A stretch of DNA of 64,000 nucleotides from assembly GCA_025060635.1 (NCBI GenBank), contig JANXBN010000001.1:496001-560000 (forward strand), written 5' to 3'. The DNA is from Candidatus Kryptonium sp. Lineage in GTDB: Bacteria; Bacteroidota; Ignavibacteria; Kryptoniales; Kryptoniaceae. The notes beneath the pieces were generated by a model. It worked only from the letters and a program-made list of their open reading frames with translations, did no database searches and was not told where the DNA came from. Position 1 is the first letter of the stretch, and every line of letters begins with the position of its first letter. Shown here piece by piece: positions 57,809-63,675 of this stretch. The position numbers were made by a program, and so were the translations under genes.

Positions 57809-57829
57809 GGCACGCCGCAAAGGCGTGCC
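57809..57829. terminator. Bidirectional terminator
   Basis: GGCACGCC (57809-57816), GCAAA, GGCGTGCC (57822-57829): a perfect 8-bp stem between convergent operons, with ATTTGATT on the plus side and an A/T-rich flank on the minus side. Confidence 0.8.
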
Positions 57830-57840
57830 ATTTGATTGAT

Positions 57841-59175
57841 TTAAAAACTATATTTAACTCTGATATAAATCTCATCTCTATCTCTTAACCTACCGAAAGT
57901 CGTGCTACCTTTGCCATCAATTATCCTTCCACCGATCGCAAGTTCTAAATTGTCAATTGGATTATATGTTATCTGTGGATTGTAAATCAAAGAGTAATTA
58001 TTTCTGATATCTTTGGCGCGTTTAAACTCAACCCCACCGCTTAGGAAATTAATTTTAAGTTTGTCGTCCATGAATTTTCTTTCAAAATTAAAGACAAGAT
58101 AGTTCTTCAAGTTTCCACGACCTCTCTCGTGCAGAAATCCATGAAGATATTGAACATTGGCATAGATCCCATTTTCAAATGTATAATCAAAGCCGAGAAC
58201 GAATCGCGTGTAATTTTTCTTCTCAAGAATTTTTCTGGATAAGTATAAATTTGTCGGTTGTATCACGATCACTGTTTCAAAATTAACTTCCTCTGGATAA
58301 AATATCCCTGCCTCTCCCCAAACACCAACTCCTCTTATATCACCTGCGAAATCAATTCCTACAACTCTCATTCTCGGGAAGAAAAGATAAACAGAATCTG
58401 GAACTAATCTGCCAACTGGTAATATGGCTTTAAATGGCATTGGAATATCATCTCTTCCATATACATAGCTCATTGAAAGATCAAAGCCGAAAATATCCCT
58501 CTTTGATATCTTCAAGCCAAACTTTGAAGCTTCTTTAAGTGAATTTTCGGGGTTTACAACTATGACTCTTTCCGATAAATTTTCAAATTCGTGGGATGAG
58601 TTCGGGAAAAATTCAGAAGCAAATACCTTTATCCAATCACCTTTTGGCAAAACAGAAGGGGTAAAGGTTGGAATGAAAACACCAGTTATTGTGAAATCAC
58701 CAAGGTAGTAAGAAAGTTTAATTGCGTTTGAACCAAGATGCCTGCCATAATCCCAAATATCTTCAAGGTCGTCTGGGTTCAAATTATCTGTTGGATTTAG
58801 CTTATCTGCCGTTCCCCAAGCTATTCTTTGCCTTCCGATTTTTAGATCAAGATTATCAATTACGAAATCTTTCAGGTCAACATATGCTTCGCGAATTTCA
58901 ATGCTAACTGGTTCAACATAATTTTTATCAGAGAGTTCAAATAGTTTCTTTACATTGCTTGAGCCAAAATTTCTAATCCAGATTTCTGAATAAAATTTTG
59001 ATTTTTCAAATTCAACTTGTCCCATGAGAGCGAGACGATATTCTTCCCACGATATTGTTCTGTCTTTTAATTTAAATCTGTCGTCCGCTTGAATATAACC
59101 ACCGATTTGTAGATTTTGTGAACTTAAGAGCGTCGTAAAAGCAAGCAGCAGGAAGAGAATTTCAATCTTTTTCAT
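57841..59175 (-). CDS. Porin-like outer-membrane beta-barrel (DUF1302-like)
   Basis: 444 residues. The signal peptide ends near LLSSQ, then alternating strands run to the C-terminus KYSF (terminal aromatic insertion signal). Segments such as LKIGRQRIAWGTADKLNPTD and EIREAYVDLKDF match the DUF1302 or phosphate-selective-porin-like barrels found with RND exporters in proteobacteria. Last gene of the TetR-RND operon, separated by 9 nt from the DUF3108 gene; the likely outer-membrane exit point of that system. Confidence 0.78.
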   Translation of the reverse strand: MKKIEILFLLLAFTTLLSSQNLQIGGYIQADDRFKLKDRTISWEEYRLALMGQVEFEKSKFYSEIWIRNFGSSNVKKLFELSDKNYVEPVSIEIREAYVDLKDFVIDNLDLKIGRQRIAWGTADKLNPTDNLNPDDLEDIWDYGRHLGSNAIKLSYYLGDFTITGVFIPTFTPSVLPKGDWIKVFASEFFPNSSHEFENLSERVIVVNPENSLKEASKFGLKISKRDIFGFDLSMSYVYGRDDIPMPFKAILPVGRLVPDSVYLFFPRMRVVGIDFAGDIRGVGVWGEAGIFYPEEVNFETVIVIQPTNLYLSRKILEKKNYTRFVLGFDYTFENGIYANVQYLHGFLHERGRGNLKNYLVFNFERKFMDDKLKINFLSGGVEFKRAKDIRNNYSLIYNPQITYNPIDNLELAIGGRIIDGKGSTTFGRLRDRDEIYIRVKYSF

Positions 59176-59184
59176 ATTTATTTT

Positions 59185-59985
59185 TTAGTTTGTTTTTAAA
59201 GGTGGACTCCAACTATCTTTTTCCCATTTTGAAAGTTCAAGTCGGACTACGCCGAGAAAAGTATTAAATGTTGCTTTAATTGGAACCCTTGCCCAATCAT
59301 CGGAGAACCAACCGTTGAACTCACCTGATATACCCGCAAGTTCTTTGCTTACAAACGATGCGTAGCCATTTATCTCAATTGTTTGTATCTCAGAATTTAA
59401 TGAAGAGATCTTTACATTTTCTCTTTTCTCAGGGAAATTAAACTTAACTTTCTCAATTCTTACAATAAATGGAGGGCGTTCAAGCTTTTCTTCAGTTGCA
59501 AACAAAAGTGGAAGATAGACCGCGACTCCAGTTCCACATAGCTTTCTCGCCACGAAAAACGCAGTTATCCCGTGGTAGTATATATCTGGATAATAAATTG
59601 ATTTTTGACCTATGAAAATGCCATTTTTGATATCAAATTGCTTTGCAATTATATCGTTTCCTTGTCTCAAGAAAATTGTCTTTAACGGGATGGCATCTTT
59701 GACTTCATAAACATTCAAGTAACTATTTAGTGGATTCTCCTTGTGAAACTTGCTTTCAAAAGTATAGTTCACATTTACAAAGAAGATGTATGGGTTTGAC
59801 TCAACATGGATTTTTGAATAAATACTATCACCTTCAACTCTCGTCCATACTCTTATCTTGCCAAGGTTTAAAAATTTCCAATACACATCATACTCAAGAT
59901 ATTCCGAGCTGAATCTAAAGTCATCTGCTGTTAAATTATTGAAAAAGCAAAAGGCTGAAAAGATTAGAGAAAAGACAAATTTCAT
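59185..59985 (-). CDS. DUF3108-like periplasmic protein
   Basis: 266 residues from ATG 59985 (an upstream in-frame TTG at 59997 overlaps the preceding gene). The signal peptide MKFVFSLIFSAFCFFNNLTA leads into a beta-rich domain starting YLEYDVYWKFLNLGKI, typical of DUF3108. The family has no assigned activity; the fold is beta-rich. It lies between a LolA-like carrier and an outer-membrane barrel in one operon, suggesting a periplasmic bridge or a second carrier. Confidence 0.72.
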   Translation of the reverse strand: MKFVFSLIFSAFCFFNNLTADDFRFSSEYLEYDVYWKFLNLGKIRVWTRVEGDSIYSKIHVESNPYIFFVNVNYTFESKFHKENPLNSYLNVYEVKDAIPLKTIFLRQGNDIIAKQFDIKNGIFIGQKSIYYPDIYYHGITAFFVARKLCGTGVAVYLPLLFATEEKLERPPFIVRIEKVKFNFPEKRENVKISSLNSEIQTIEINGYASFVSKELAGISGEFNGWFSDDWARVPIKATFNTFLGVVRLELSKWEKDSWSPPLKTN

Positions 59986-59986
59986 T

Positions 59987-60718
59987 TTATCGTTCAAGAT
60001 TTCTTACTGTGAAAATGTCATCGCTTAGGTTTGTGTCAAACTTGACATCCTCAAGAACTAGCTTTGTCGTATGATTTTTTTTGATGTCTTTCATCTCGGT
60101 TTCAAGAGCAACCCAATAGTTTCCTATTTTTTGAATCTTTCTCCTTGTTAAAATTTTATGGAGGTTCCCGGCCTTATCGTAATATTCTATTTTTTCGGGA
60201 TAGAAATTATCAACCCTGGCATACAGGATCAACTTTGAATAATCGCTTGTCCTACCTTTCCGTGGTGTTAATTTTAAAACATAATATGAATCGTCTTTTC
60301 TTAAAAGTTCTGGCTCCCATTTTTCCGAATAAGTCAACGCTTCCATATCTTCATATGTGAAATCAGTCCCTGCGAAATTTTGATTTTTGATGTGAGATGC
60401 AATTCTTCGGCTCTTTTTAAATGCGGGGAGATAAACATAGTTCACATCGTCAGGTAGGGACAAAAAACCGATACCTCTTATGTCGGCTGGCTCTGTGAAT
60501 TTAACAAGTCGTTTGTTTGTCCCCTTCTGATACATTAAAGCTTCACGATAAGTTTCTCTTCCGTTTTTGTCTATCAATGTGACTTTTGATTTATAAAATT
60601 GATCTTTTGCCGAATAAGATACCTCGTCAACTTTTTTCAGAATTTCAACAGCAGTGAGTTGAGCAAATGATGTATTTAGAAATAAAAGTAGAGCAATGGG
60701 AAGAAACAGATAACGCAT
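59987..60718 (-). CDS. LolA-like outer-membrane lipoprotein-sorting protein
   Basis: 243 residues, signal peptide to about residue 19 (NTSFAQ). It has AVEILKKVDEVSYSAKD, a repeated beta-strand core with FLSLPDDVNYVYLPAFKK and the region DFTYEDMEALTYSEKWEP, matching the LolA-like family Pfam PF17131 often encoded next to MMPL/RND exporters. LolA folds carry lipids or acylated proteins in a hydrophobic cleft. It begins 21 nt after the RND gene. The cargo is unknown. Confidence 0.85.
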   Translation of the reverse strand: MRYLFLPIALLLFLNTSFAQLTAVEILKKVDEVSYSAKDQFYKSKVTLIDKNGRETYREALMYQKGTNKRLVKFTEPADIRGIGFLSLPDDVNYVYLPAFKKSRRIASHIKNQNFAGTDFTYEDMEALTYSEKWEPELLRKDDSYYVLKLTPRKGRTSDYSKLILYARVDNFYPEKIEYYDKAGNLHKILTRRKIQKIGNYWVALETEMKDIKKNHTTKLVLEDVKFDTNLSDDIFTVRNLER

Positions 60719-60739
60719 TTTTGATCTTTCCTTTTGTTT

Positions 60740-63016
60740 TTATTTTATTTCAACTTGCTTTTGAATCTCAACTTGTTTAAGAAGTTTTCTTAGGAATTTT
60801 GGCTTGAAGGTTAAAATTATCGCCGGAAGTAAAACAAGCGTTGCGCCACCCGATAAAAACATTGTAAGCAAAATCATTATACCAAATCTTTGCAACGGTA
60901 TCACATTTGCGAATACAAGGACCAAAAATCCAAGTGCGACTGATAGAACATTTATAAGAATTGCTATACCAGTCGTTCCAAGGACCTTGCTTATTGCTTC
61001 TTCAAAAGCATAACTTTCTTTAAGCTCAACTTTTAATCTGTTCATAAAATGAATTGAGTAGTCAATCCCCATGCCGAGCGAAACTCCTGCGATTAAAACT
61101 GTCGCGATATCCAACGGAATTCCAGAATATCCCATAAATCCGTAGGCTACGACTATAGTTAATGAAATTGGGACAATTCCGAGAAGTCCACCGAGAACTG
61201 TTTTAAGTTGAAATATCATTATCAAAAAGACAAATCCGAGGGCGAAGATTAAACTTTGTATCTGACTTTTGATTATGGCGTCGTCTAAGTGTTTATAAAT
61301 TAGAGGCATGCCAGTTTGTTCAAACTTGACATCTATTCCTTTAGATGAAATTGAAGCGAAATAATTATCAATTCTTTGGACAAGTTCTGATATTTTCGTT
61401 GAACTTGCATAGGTCACCATCGCTTGAATAATTGCTTCATCTTTCTCTGGTGAGACAAGTTGGCTGAAAATTTCTTCGCCTTCAATTAGAAACATTAGGT
61501 TTATTATCTTTTCCCTCGTTTCTGGGATTTTTTTACCTTCGCCCATTGCATTGTTCATTTCCTCAATTATGCTCGCTATTGATTGTGGATTATGAACATC
61601 TTCAAGTGATCGGAGGAAGTTTTCAACATTTTTAATTTCATTTAAAACCTCTGGATTTTGAATATCACCTTTAATTAGTATATAAAGTGGCAGTGAACCA
61701 CCGAAATTTTTCTTTAACATTTCCTCTGTTGCCCTGACATTTGTCTCTGGTTTAAAATATTCAATTATACTTACCTCTCTGTTTATTTTAAAAATCCCAA
61801 CTATCCCAGCAACGACGATCAACACAGTGAAAATGAGAACTAAATACTTAAACTTTGATATTAATTTTGTAAGTTTCACTACAAGCTTTCTGTCCTGTTG
61901 TGAATCTGAGACTTTGTTGATCATTCTTTCATGTTTTAAAAATGATAAAATTGATGGGATCAGTGTAAGTGATATGATGAGGGCAAACAAGACGCCGACA
62001 CTTGTAAAAATTCCAAATTCTTTTATCATGGTCAAATAAGAGCCAGAAACAAAGGACAGGAAGCCAGCAATGGTCGTAACTCCTGCAAGAATAACTGGAA
62101 GAGCGATCTCGCTTAAAGCAATTTTTGCCCTTTCTTTTGGATTGGTTATCCTTATATCCTCTCTGAATTTATTTACGATGTGAATTCCGTAGGCACTTCC
62201 GACCGCTGTTAAAATTACAGGTATTGAATCAGAGATTATCGTTAATGGTATGTTCAAAAGAGACATCAATCCAAGTGTCCATATTATGCTTAAGGCAACG
62301 CAAAGAATCGGCAGGATGACGCCTCTTAAATTTTTGAAGCTGAAGAGCAAAATTAGAATCATCACCACACCAACGAGTGGTGTTAATATCTTCAGATCGT
62401 CAATTATAAGTTGATTCATATCAATCATCTGAAAGGGTAATCCACCATAATAAACTTTCCCTGTTATCTTTTCTGATTCAACAACTTTTTTTATTTCCTT
62501 TGCAACTTGTGCCTTGTCCACACCTTCTCTTAGTTTACACAATATCAATGTCACTTTAGCATCTCTTGATACGATGTTTTTATAAAGATCTTTTGAAAGG
62601 ACATATCTTTTTAGCTCGTTCAGCTTTTGTTGATCGTCTGGTATTTCATTAATTAGTCGCCCAATTTCAATTCCCTCTTCTGTCCCTTTTATGTCAATTA
62701 CATTTGTTAAACTTGTAACATATGAAACGCCGTCAACATACTTTAGCTTCTCGGTTAAGTTATAAATTTCGGTTAAAGTTTTGTGGTTAAAGATATCTTC
62801 GTTTTCAATTGCAACTATCGCAGTTAAATTCCCACCATATTTATTTCCGATATTTCTTGCCAGCTTGACTGCGTAATCGGTTTCAGGAAGATATGATGCG
62901 AAGTCGGAGTTAATTTTTAAGTTCTTCATTGAGTAAGCAAAAATTAGCGTCAAAACAATGATGATGAAAATAAGTATCTTACGATTGTTTATGATGAAGT
63001 TGCTAAATTTTTGCAT
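60740..63016 (-). CDS. RND-superfamily exporter, MMPL/HpnN-like
   Basis: 758 residues with the duplicated RND layout: TM1 (about 12-30), a periplasmic loop, TMs 2-6 (about 215-365), TM7 near 395, a second periplasmic loop, and TMs 8-12 (605-735). SDSIPVILTAVGSAYGIHIV and VSLGMGIDYSIHFMNR are the paired TM4/TM10-type motifs. It lacks the long loops of AcrB-type drug pumps and has no adaptor or TolC-like gene beside it. Lipid-type exporters (MmpL, HpnN) are the closest functional class. Thirteen nt separate it from the TetR gene. Confidence 0.9.
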   Translation of the reverse strand: MQKFSNFIINNRKILIFIIIVLTLIFAYSMKNLKINSDFASYLPETDYAVKLARNIGNKYGGNLTAIVAIENEDIFNHKTLTEIYNLTEKLKYVDGVSYVTSLTNVIDIKGTEEGIEIGRLINEIPDDQQKLNELKRYVLSKDLYKNIVSRDAKVTLILCKLREGVDKAQVAKEIKKVVESEKITGKVYYGGLPFQMIDMNQLIIDDLKILTPLVGVVMILILLFSFKNLRGVILPILCVALSIIWTLGLMSLLNIPLTIISDSIPVILTAVGSAYGIHIVNKFREDIRITNPKERAKIALSEIALPVILAGVTTIAGFLSFVSGSYLTMIKEFGIFTSVGVLFALIISLTLIPSILSFLKHERMINKVSDSQQDRKLVVKLTKLISKFKYLVLIFTVLIVVAGIVGIFKINREVSIIEYFKPETNVRATEEMLKKNFGGSLPLYILIKGDIQNPEVLNEIKNVENFLRSLEDVHNPQSIASIIEEMNNAMGEGKKIPETREKIINLMFLIEGEEIFSQLVSPEKDEAIIQAMVTYASSTKISELVQRIDNYFASISSKGIDVKFEQTGMPLIYKHLDDAIIKSQIQSLIFALGFVFLIMIFQLKTVLGGLLGIVPISLTIVVAYGFMGYSGIPLDIATVLIAGVSLGMGIDYSIHFMNRLKVELKESYAFEEAISKVLGTTGIAILINVLSVALGFLVLVFANVIPLQRFGIMILLTMFLSGGATLVLLPAIILTFKPKFLRKLLKQVEIQKQVEIK

Positions 63017-63029
63017 TTTTCTGACTCAT

Positions 63030-63608
63030 TTACTTTTTAATTATTCCGTAAAATAAGATGTCAAGCAAATTGTCAATGTCCTTTTCCGTCCATCGCGTAT
63101 TCCCTTGAAAGACCCATGATTCAAAACCCTTCAAGGTAATTAAAATTGCAAGCGTTGTCATTTCAATATCTTTTACCTCAAATATACCTTTCGCAATTCC
63201 TTCTTTTAAGATTTCGCATATTGCGTTTGTTTCTTCTTCGTCATACTTTTTTCTGAATTTTTCAATGAATTTATAGTTTTCCAGGTATTCATCTTTCAAT
63301 GCGCTGTAAAAATTTGCCAAGTGTTTAAGCGCTTTCATTCGGGTTATAATGTATGAGCGAAGCTTGCCTTGTGGGGTGTTTTCCTGACTTATCGCTTTTT
63401 CAATTTTTTCGCGTAGGACTTGCGCTTCCTGTTCAATAACGGCTTGAAAAACTTCTTCTTTACTCTGAAAATAGTAATAAAGTGAGCTTTTTGCTTTTTT
63501 CACAGCTTTTGCGATTTCTTCCATCGTTGTTTTCTTGAAGCCAAACCTCGCGAAGATTTCTCGTGCTATTTCAACTATCTCATCTTTCGTTTTCTCAATA
63601 TCAATCAT
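63030..63608 (-). CDS. TetR-family transcriptional regulator
   Basis: 192 residues. N-terminal helix-turn-helix with FARFGFKKTTMEEIAKAV and KSSLYYYFQSKEEVF, followed by a ligand-binding helical domain. First gene of the RND-LolA-DUF3108-barrel operon, so it is autoregulated and controls the exporter. A perfect 10-bp inverted repeat lies across its promoter and leader. The inducer is probably a hydrophobic molecule related to the cargo (inference). Confidence 0.93.
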   Translation of the reverse strand: MIDIEKTKDEIVEIAREIFARFGFKKTTMEEIAKAVKKAKSSLYYYFQSKEEVFQAVIEQEAQVLREKIEKAISQENTPQGKLRSYIITRMKALKHLANFYSALKDEYLENYKFIEKFRKKYDEEETNAICEILKEGIAKGIFEVKDIEMTTLAILITLKGFESWVFQGNTRWTEKDIDNLLDILFYGIIKK

Positions 63609-63612
63609 TTGA

Positions 63613-63645
63613 ATTTTCGACCATTTTGTTTTTTTGGTCGAAAAT
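63613..63645 (-). promoter_or_regulatory. Putative TetR operator
   Basis: ATTTTCGACC (63613-63622), 13-nt spacer, GGTCGAAAAT (63636-63645): a perfect 10-bp inverted repeat. The distal arm overlaps the -7 box and predicted start, the other lies just before the ATG, so binding would block initiation. Confidence 0.65.
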
Positions 63646-63675
63646 AATATAGTCGGAAAAATTTAAAAAGTCAAG
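63644..63675 (-). promoter_or_regulatory. Promoter of the tetR-RND operon
   Basis: Minus strand: CTTG at 63672-63675, 20 nt, TATATTAT at 63644-63651. The predicted start near 63637 lies inside the inverted repeat. Leader about 29 nt. Confidence 0.55.

Follow-up and report, generated by a model that had tools for sequence, protein, structure and literature searches.

We analysed a candidate lipid-export operon in a 64,000-nucleotide stretch of the Candidatus Kryptonium sp. genome (GenBank assembly GCA_025060635.1, contig JANXBN010000001.1, positions 496,001 to 560,000 of the forward strand; below, the window, to which positions refer unless a locus is named). Five tightly spaced genes lie on the minus strand at 57841-63608. 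In the direction of transcription they encode a predicted TetR/AcrR-family autoregulator (192 residues, 63030-63608; TetR_N, PF00440, 7.5e-15), a HAE3/MmpL-type resistance-nodulation-division (RND) inner-membrane transporter (758 residues, 60740-63016), a LolA-like periplasmic carrier of family PF17131 with a signal peptide (243 residues, 59987-60718), a DUF3108-like secreted protein (59185-59997 from the listed TTG start or, more likely, 59185-59985 from an internal ATG) and a DUF1302-like outer-membrane beta-barrel (444 residues ending in ...YSF, 57841-59175). The gaps between them, with the ATG start taken for the DUF3108 gene, are 13, 21, 1 and 9 base pairs. A preliminary description, made from the letters of the sequence alone, had named these genes, and their positions and families are borne out, if weakly for DUF3108. 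It was also right that a membrane fusion protein (MFP) adaptor and a TolC-like channel are absent: a Pfam scan of the five proteins found neither, and the operon thus lacks the pair of components that marks a tripartite HAE1 pump. The closest matches to the LolA-like protein come from another Kryptonia (88%), Kryptonium thompsonii (86%) and Chrysopegis kryptomonas (85%); the host is a Candidatus Kryptonia-type, hot-spring-type bacterium.

The permease matches the MMPL family of Pfam (4.9e-47) and is HAE3-like, although its match to the HAE3 profile TIGR00921 (E 4e-95, 319 bits) falls below the curated cut-off of 352. It reaches neither of the curated equivalogs HpnN (127.6 versus 751.85 bits) and MmpL3 (25.9 versus 1400 bits); HpnN and MmpL transporters are among its best solved relatives, and by these profiles it belongs to the same superfamily without being a member of either group. 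Residues H279, D652 and H656, at the positions of transmembrane helices 4 and 10 of RND proteins, are invariant across 13 relatives and are compatible with proton coupling. At one locus (L095:4742-6872, genome G005) the RND gene is present as two half-size open frames beside the LolA_like gene, which reflects either a frameshift or real half-transporters. The carrier matches PF17131 (LolA_like) at 2.8e-53 and narrowly exceeds the cut-off of DUF1329 as well (23.3 versus 23.1 bits), and its solved relatives belong to the LolA superfamily (9tp6, 3bk5, 4z48 and 3buu).

The DUF3108 protein had been described as a second soluble carrier, and this part of the preliminary description did not hold. Its match to PF11306 (1.2e-4; 22.4 bits in the single-protein scan and 21.1 in the genome scan, against a cut-off of 26) makes kinship with that family likely, if weak; a profile comparison with LolA gave no match, a search by sequence found no solved relative, and its AlphaFold model, built with only seven sequences, is of low confidence (predicted local distance difference test score, pLDDT, 42). 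The gene is kept in the Kryptonia loci L005-L008 and in the Calditrichaceae loci L014 and L018, and within the cassettes read it occurs only in Kryptonia and some Calditrichaceae. There are four DUF3108 matches in the host genome; the operon copy has a close paralogue among them, at C1:205.5 kb (6e-61). We therefore rejected the protein as a LolA-type carrier on the grounds of its missing LolA similarity, its limited distribution and its low-confidence model; on this evidence it appears to be a lineage accessory rather than a demonstrated second carrier.

Transcription would start from a sigma-70-like promoter at 63646-63674 on the minus strand (TTGACT, a 17-nucleotide spacer and TATATT; 10 of 12 consensus positions matched), and the right end of the stretch originally noted, 63675, agrees with the -35 box of this promoter (63674-63646). 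A putative TetR operator, TTCGACC-N13-GGTCGAA (63616-63642, minus strand), lies after the -10 box and before the start codon of tetR. When the upstream regions of four Kryptonia are aligned, they have in common a promoter and, directly before tetR, the inverted repeat TTTTCGACC-N13-GGTCGAAAA; TTGACT and the AT-rich -10 region are kept in L005-L007, and the operator arms often co-vary by compensatory changes (TTTGAC/GTCAAA in L005, CGACT/AGTCG in L007). The operator pattern is also found upstream of tetR in L008, in the Poribacteria locus L011 and in a relative of the same class (L083), and tetR stands before the RND gene in L005-L007, L011, L013, L014, L017 and L083. The pattern TTYGACY-N13-RGTCRAA matches only once in the whole 2.5-Mb host genome, at the site on the tetR promoter, and because of this single occurrence TetR most likely controls its own operon alone. 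The host does carry a separate TetR-TolC-MFP-HAE1 set with its own tetR gene (L143; G000:C1, about 236-242 kb), and the genome-wide pattern search found no copy of the operator there; the single site therefore argues against a regulon common to the two, and an MFP/TolC pair under the same control was ruled out. At its other end the operon is separated from a convergent S9 peptidase gene by a predicted hairpin terminator (57809-57829, minus strand; -18.2 kcal/mol, z -4.0), an 8-base-pair stem followed on that strand by a T-rich tail.

The same five genes occur in the same order in Kryptonium (L005), Chrysopegis (L006) and another Kryptonia (L007), and in Thermokryptus (L008) as far as its short contig extends; because of this recurrence we regard the operon as more than a chance arrangement. 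An RND-LolA-barrel core without DUF3108 is far more widespread, mostly with TetR: it is found in Zixibacteria, Poribacteria, Spirochaetes, Deltaproteobacteria, SAR324, Massilibacteroides and others, as TetR-RND-LolA-barrel in Poribacteria, Spirochaetes, SAR324 and Bacteroidales and as RND-LolA-barrel in Deltaproteobacteria. Related sets appear in plasmid records, in the order MMPL, lipoprotein-sorting protein and DUF1302 in Prevotella nigrescens, LolA, MMPL and a hypothetical protein (a weak barrel match, 1.2e-8) in Thalassospira, and YCF48, MMPL, DUF1302 and DUF1329 in Aromatoleum. Permease and carrier are one fused RND-LolA protein in Bdellovibrionaceae and also in Acinetobacter, where a barrel adjoins. 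Some same-class cassettes (L062-L064) have an extra gene of about 190 codons between RND and LolA, which in L062 is YtfJ-like by Pfam; L062 also has a second TetR-like gene.

Linkage was evaluated on a genome-wide basis by running a barrel profile, built from RND cassettes only, on 118 whole genomes, without LolA as a guide. For 51 of the 53 barrel-matching stretches, a strong LolA_like or HAE3 RND gene is found no more than 15 kb away; the remaining two lie at contig starts, beginning at base 31 and base 616. In 12 genomes an RND-barrel pair lacks a LolA_like gene nearby, and exactly these 12 have a single LolA_like gene elsewhere that neither a motor nor a barrel accompanies (relatives share ancestry, so that 12 matches in 12 genomes are not 12 independent events); the pair was seen in five of six such loci inspected, with between none and about ten intervening genes. 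Among the strong matches in same-family genera that lack the RND-barrel pair (for example, G061, G081 and G089) there is no lone LolA_like gene. RND, LolA_like and barrel genes thus co-occur even when they are split over the genome. Random neighbours of PF17131 homologues, which would have spoken against a functional set, were not seen across the relatives' loci, and the claim that permease, carrier and barrel form one unit is upheld by the non-random neighbourhoods, the genome-wide linkage and the RND-LolA fusions.

The barrel profile separates its targets well, with 44 cassette open reading frames (ORFs) at E of 4e-9 or below, three more in ATP-binding cassette (ABC) loci between 5e-4 and 0.1, and the rest at 0.2 or above. 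A generic porin effect was rejected as the main cause of the barrel similarity: non-cassette outer-membrane proteins and ORFs at the same loci score at 0.2 or above, and the whole-genome matches stay with LolA or RND genes.

In the phylum, an RND gene is not the usual neighbour of a strong LolA_like gene: most have beside them two FtsX/MacB-type permeases, a barrel and a gene of the size of an ABC ATPase, and often TetR too. Apart from the three weak cases just given, the barrels of these ABC cassettes match the RND-derived profile at E of about 1e-9 to 1e-23. Barrels and strong LolA_like genes each number exactly two in the host genome, making up one RND cassette and one ABC cassette (L123:3930-8948; C1, about 115-120 kb); the latter, whose gene content was checked against Pfam for this host copy, joins LolA_like to two FtsX/MacB-type permeases, an ABC ATPase and a same-family barrel, and has no adjacent TetR. 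Across Bacteroidota, the LolA-barrel core is paired with either an RND motor or a LolCDE-like ABC motor. We tentatively extend this, with somewhat less than even confidence, to a single modular trans-envelope lipid pathway of Bacteroidota and neighbouring phyla, in which a PF17131 carrier and a DUF1302-like barrel would be fixed, a proton-driven RND motor and an ATP-driven ABC motor would be interchangeable (both versions being possible in one genome), and the barrel would be the direct acceptor or exporter of the LolA-borne lipid. If true, this would place a barrel at the outer-membrane step, which has none in the classical Lol pathway. Exchange of motors on a fixed carrier-barrel pair, which we did not find in the open-licence literature searched, would be a clear case of modular evolution in envelope transport.

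The ABC cassette also bears on the idea that these genes form a Lol-like sorting pathway, in which the LolA-like protein would deliver a lipoprotein, or the barrel itself, to the outer membrane. The name of PF17131 refers to lipoprotein sorting, and the host pairs a LolA_like protein with FtsX/LolD-type ABC genes and a barrel, as such a pathway might. The motor of the operon, however, is an RND protein, the cassette includes no lipoprotein gene, the barrel is a constant companion of these genes and not one client among many, and a TetR operator serving a single operon is unlike housekeeping sorting; we consider sorting the least probable of the explanations treated here, and highly improbable in itself.

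The barrel itself matches DUF1302 (PF06980) above the cut-off, at 2.4e-8, and its AlphaFold model (pLDDT 76.5, predicted template modelling score 0.74) aligns in VIA-align with MOMP, OprD/Occ and AlgE barrels (Z 20.8-22.8), with AlgE as the top Foldseek match (1.2e-12). FadL-type barrels are not among the best matches listed by either program, which is not evidence of their absence. These matches to a predicted structure indicate a porin-type barrel and not a particular function. The resemblance to the substrate channels OprD/Occ and MOMP would suit an uptake system, in which an apolar nutrient would enter by way of the barrel and the carrier, with the RND protein as regulator or energy source; growth on phenanthrene suffers when DUF1329 is lost, and the Nanopod cluster was published with its direction of transport left open (PMC13101534). 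Against import, the permeases of the linked ABC variant are of the FtsX/MacB type, and the relatives of that type that handle lipids (LolCDE) transport outward. It is also established that characterised RND permeases, including HpnN and MmpL, export from the inner membrane or the periplasm, and uptake is in our view very improbable.

Evidence on the cargo comes from the relatives' cassettes. In genome G070, of the same class, one long co-directional gene run (L083/L124; G070:C4, about 70.6-83 kb) has the order TetR, RND, LolA, phasin-like protein, UbiB, GT2, LysE, PlsC-type acyltransferase, 4HBT thioesterase, serine palmitoyltransferase, patatin and barrel. The serine palmitoyltransferase has NF047600 as its best match (527 bits, with the cut-off at 640), and the barrel matches the operon barrel at 1.5e-113. 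Calditrichaceae cassettes include UbiB, PlsC, patatin, GT2, FabH and DUF3108, and Mla genes adjoin two other cassettes. Because lipid-synthesis genes accompany the G070 and Calditrichaceae cassettes and Mla genes the two others, a lipid is likely to be the cargo, consistent with the hydrophobic cargo first proposed. In the open-licence literature searched we found neither a serine palmitoyltransferase co-occurring with an RND-LolA-barrel cassette nor a carrier route for bacterial sphingolipid-type lipids. Two further loci were noted in passing: at L139:9422-11769, in Kryptonia, a GNAT-like protein comes after a serine palmitoyltransferase, which suggests that Kryptonia may make sphingoid-type lipids, and at L029:2-9125, from Deltaproteobacteria, the RND-LolA-barrel genes directly follow a thioesterase-like gene and a long frame that resembles a nonribosomal peptide synthetase (identified by eye).

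Taken together, these observations make it probable that the operon is a TetR-regulated set that carries a hydrophobic cargo from the inner membrane through a soluble carrier to an outer-membrane barrel, the cargo being most likely a lipid. The RND permease would extract the cargo from the inner membrane, the LolA-like protein would cover it while it crosses the periplasm, and the DUF1302-like barrel would take it up or release it at the outer membrane, with the DUF3108 protein as a putative lineage-specific helper; TetR would bind the single operator on its own promoter and be released, presumably, by the cargo or a precursor. Several points weigh against this proposal, in addition to the shared ancestry of the relatives: the serine palmitoyltransferase of the host (54% identical) lies on another contig, C5; the Kryptonia neighbours nadA, S9 peptidase and DUF5916 lend no lipid context; the barrel model resembles substrate channels as well as the exporter AlgE; the undecided direction of the Nanopod cluster leaves room for an imported cargo; and the published relatives are mostly tied to hydrocarbon tolerance or degradation, so that the cargo may be a small hydrophobic molecule. 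How lipids other than lipopolysaccharide and lipoproteins get to the outer membrane has puzzled the field for a long time, and the widespread module of an RND or ABC motor, LolA-like carrier and barrel offers named, testable candidates for this transport, some of them in cultivable organisms; in at least one lineage the module shares a gene run with serine palmitoyltransferase and acyltransferases.

The preliminary description had also held that this layout differs from those of known systems, and here it must be corrected, in that four published systems have it wholly or partly. AmeABCD of Castellaniella defragrans and the corresponding set on plasmid 2 of Aromatoleum EbN1 combine, like the operon, a HAE3 RND protein, a LolA-superfamily carrier and a DUF1302 barrel, with no MFP or TolC; profiles of the operon proteins match the Aromatoleum proteins at 7.6e-106 (RND), 8e-17 (carrier, DUF1329) and 5e-5 (barrel, DUF1302). 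The role of AmeABCD is monoterpene tolerance, and its deletion lowers that tolerance and raises Nile Red influx (PMC6394551); the loss of tolerance also counts in favour of a hydrophobic cargo for the operon. This homology favours a solvent or hydrocarbon tolerance pump that would expel small apolar compounds (terpenes, alkanes or aromatics) and whose TetR would sense the toxicant, as do the common use of TetR control among such pumps and the induction of the related TOL_3187/TOL_3188 pair of Thalassolituus oleivorans on C28 alkane (PMC6304351). Some close relatives of the operon, however, adjoin serine palmitoyltransferase, PlsC, UbiB and patatin rather than hydrocarbon catabolism genes, and the ApeL/ApeM/ApeN proteins, which follow the same RND plus LolA-like plan, are proposed carriers of a lipid-linked pigment; a tolerance pump is thus a rather unlikely alternative to lipid export.

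The operon also differs from these systems in its parts. The fourth protein of AmeABCD-type sets is YCF48/COG4447 (AmeC), a domain that the Pfam scan found in none of the five operon proteins, where DUF3108 stands instead; their carrier is of the DUF1329 type (451 residues) rather than PF17131, and the Aromatoleum region shown has no adjacent TetR, unlike the operon with its TetR and operator. ApeL/ApeM/ApeN, encoded in aryl polyene clusters (PMC8253772), share with it an RND permease, a LolA-like carrier and a proposed dedicated lipid transport to the outer membrane, but they have a LolB-like DUF3261 protein as receiver where the operon has a barrel, and they sit in a pigment-lipid biosynthetic cluster. 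TOL_3187/TOL_3188 and a fusion on Acinetobacter pDETAB15 likewise place MMPL and LolA-like domains beside a porin-like barrel, with permease and carrier in one polypeptide and no DUF3108 (at the latter locus, L153:5326-10247, a 1216-residue RND-LolA fusion overlaps a 424-residue barrel gene where the PLSDB table lists no gene). The Nanopod cluster of ORM2a (PMC13101534) has an MMPL transporter, a DUF1329 protein and a porin-like protein, and differs by its YCF48 and universal stress proteins and its link to anaerobic benzene degradation. With LolCDE-LolA-LolB the operon has a LolA-type carrier in common, and the host ABC cassette resembles LolCDE; the operon itself has no LolCDE, and is a TetR-regulated accessory cassette with an RND motor and a barrel in place of LolB. 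The hopanoid transporter HpnN and the mycobacterial lipid transporters of the MmpL type share the RND superfamily, but HpnN acts without co-transcribed partners (PMC6394551) and MmpL acts in a different envelope type with other partners. The operon is accordingly a relative of the AmeABCD, ApeLMN and TOL_3187-type systems and not an Ame system proper: its architecture has already been published, it departs from that architecture in having PF17131 instead of DUF1329, DUF3108 instead of YCF48 and a TetR operator, and the wider family that includes it allows exchange of the pump for another type.

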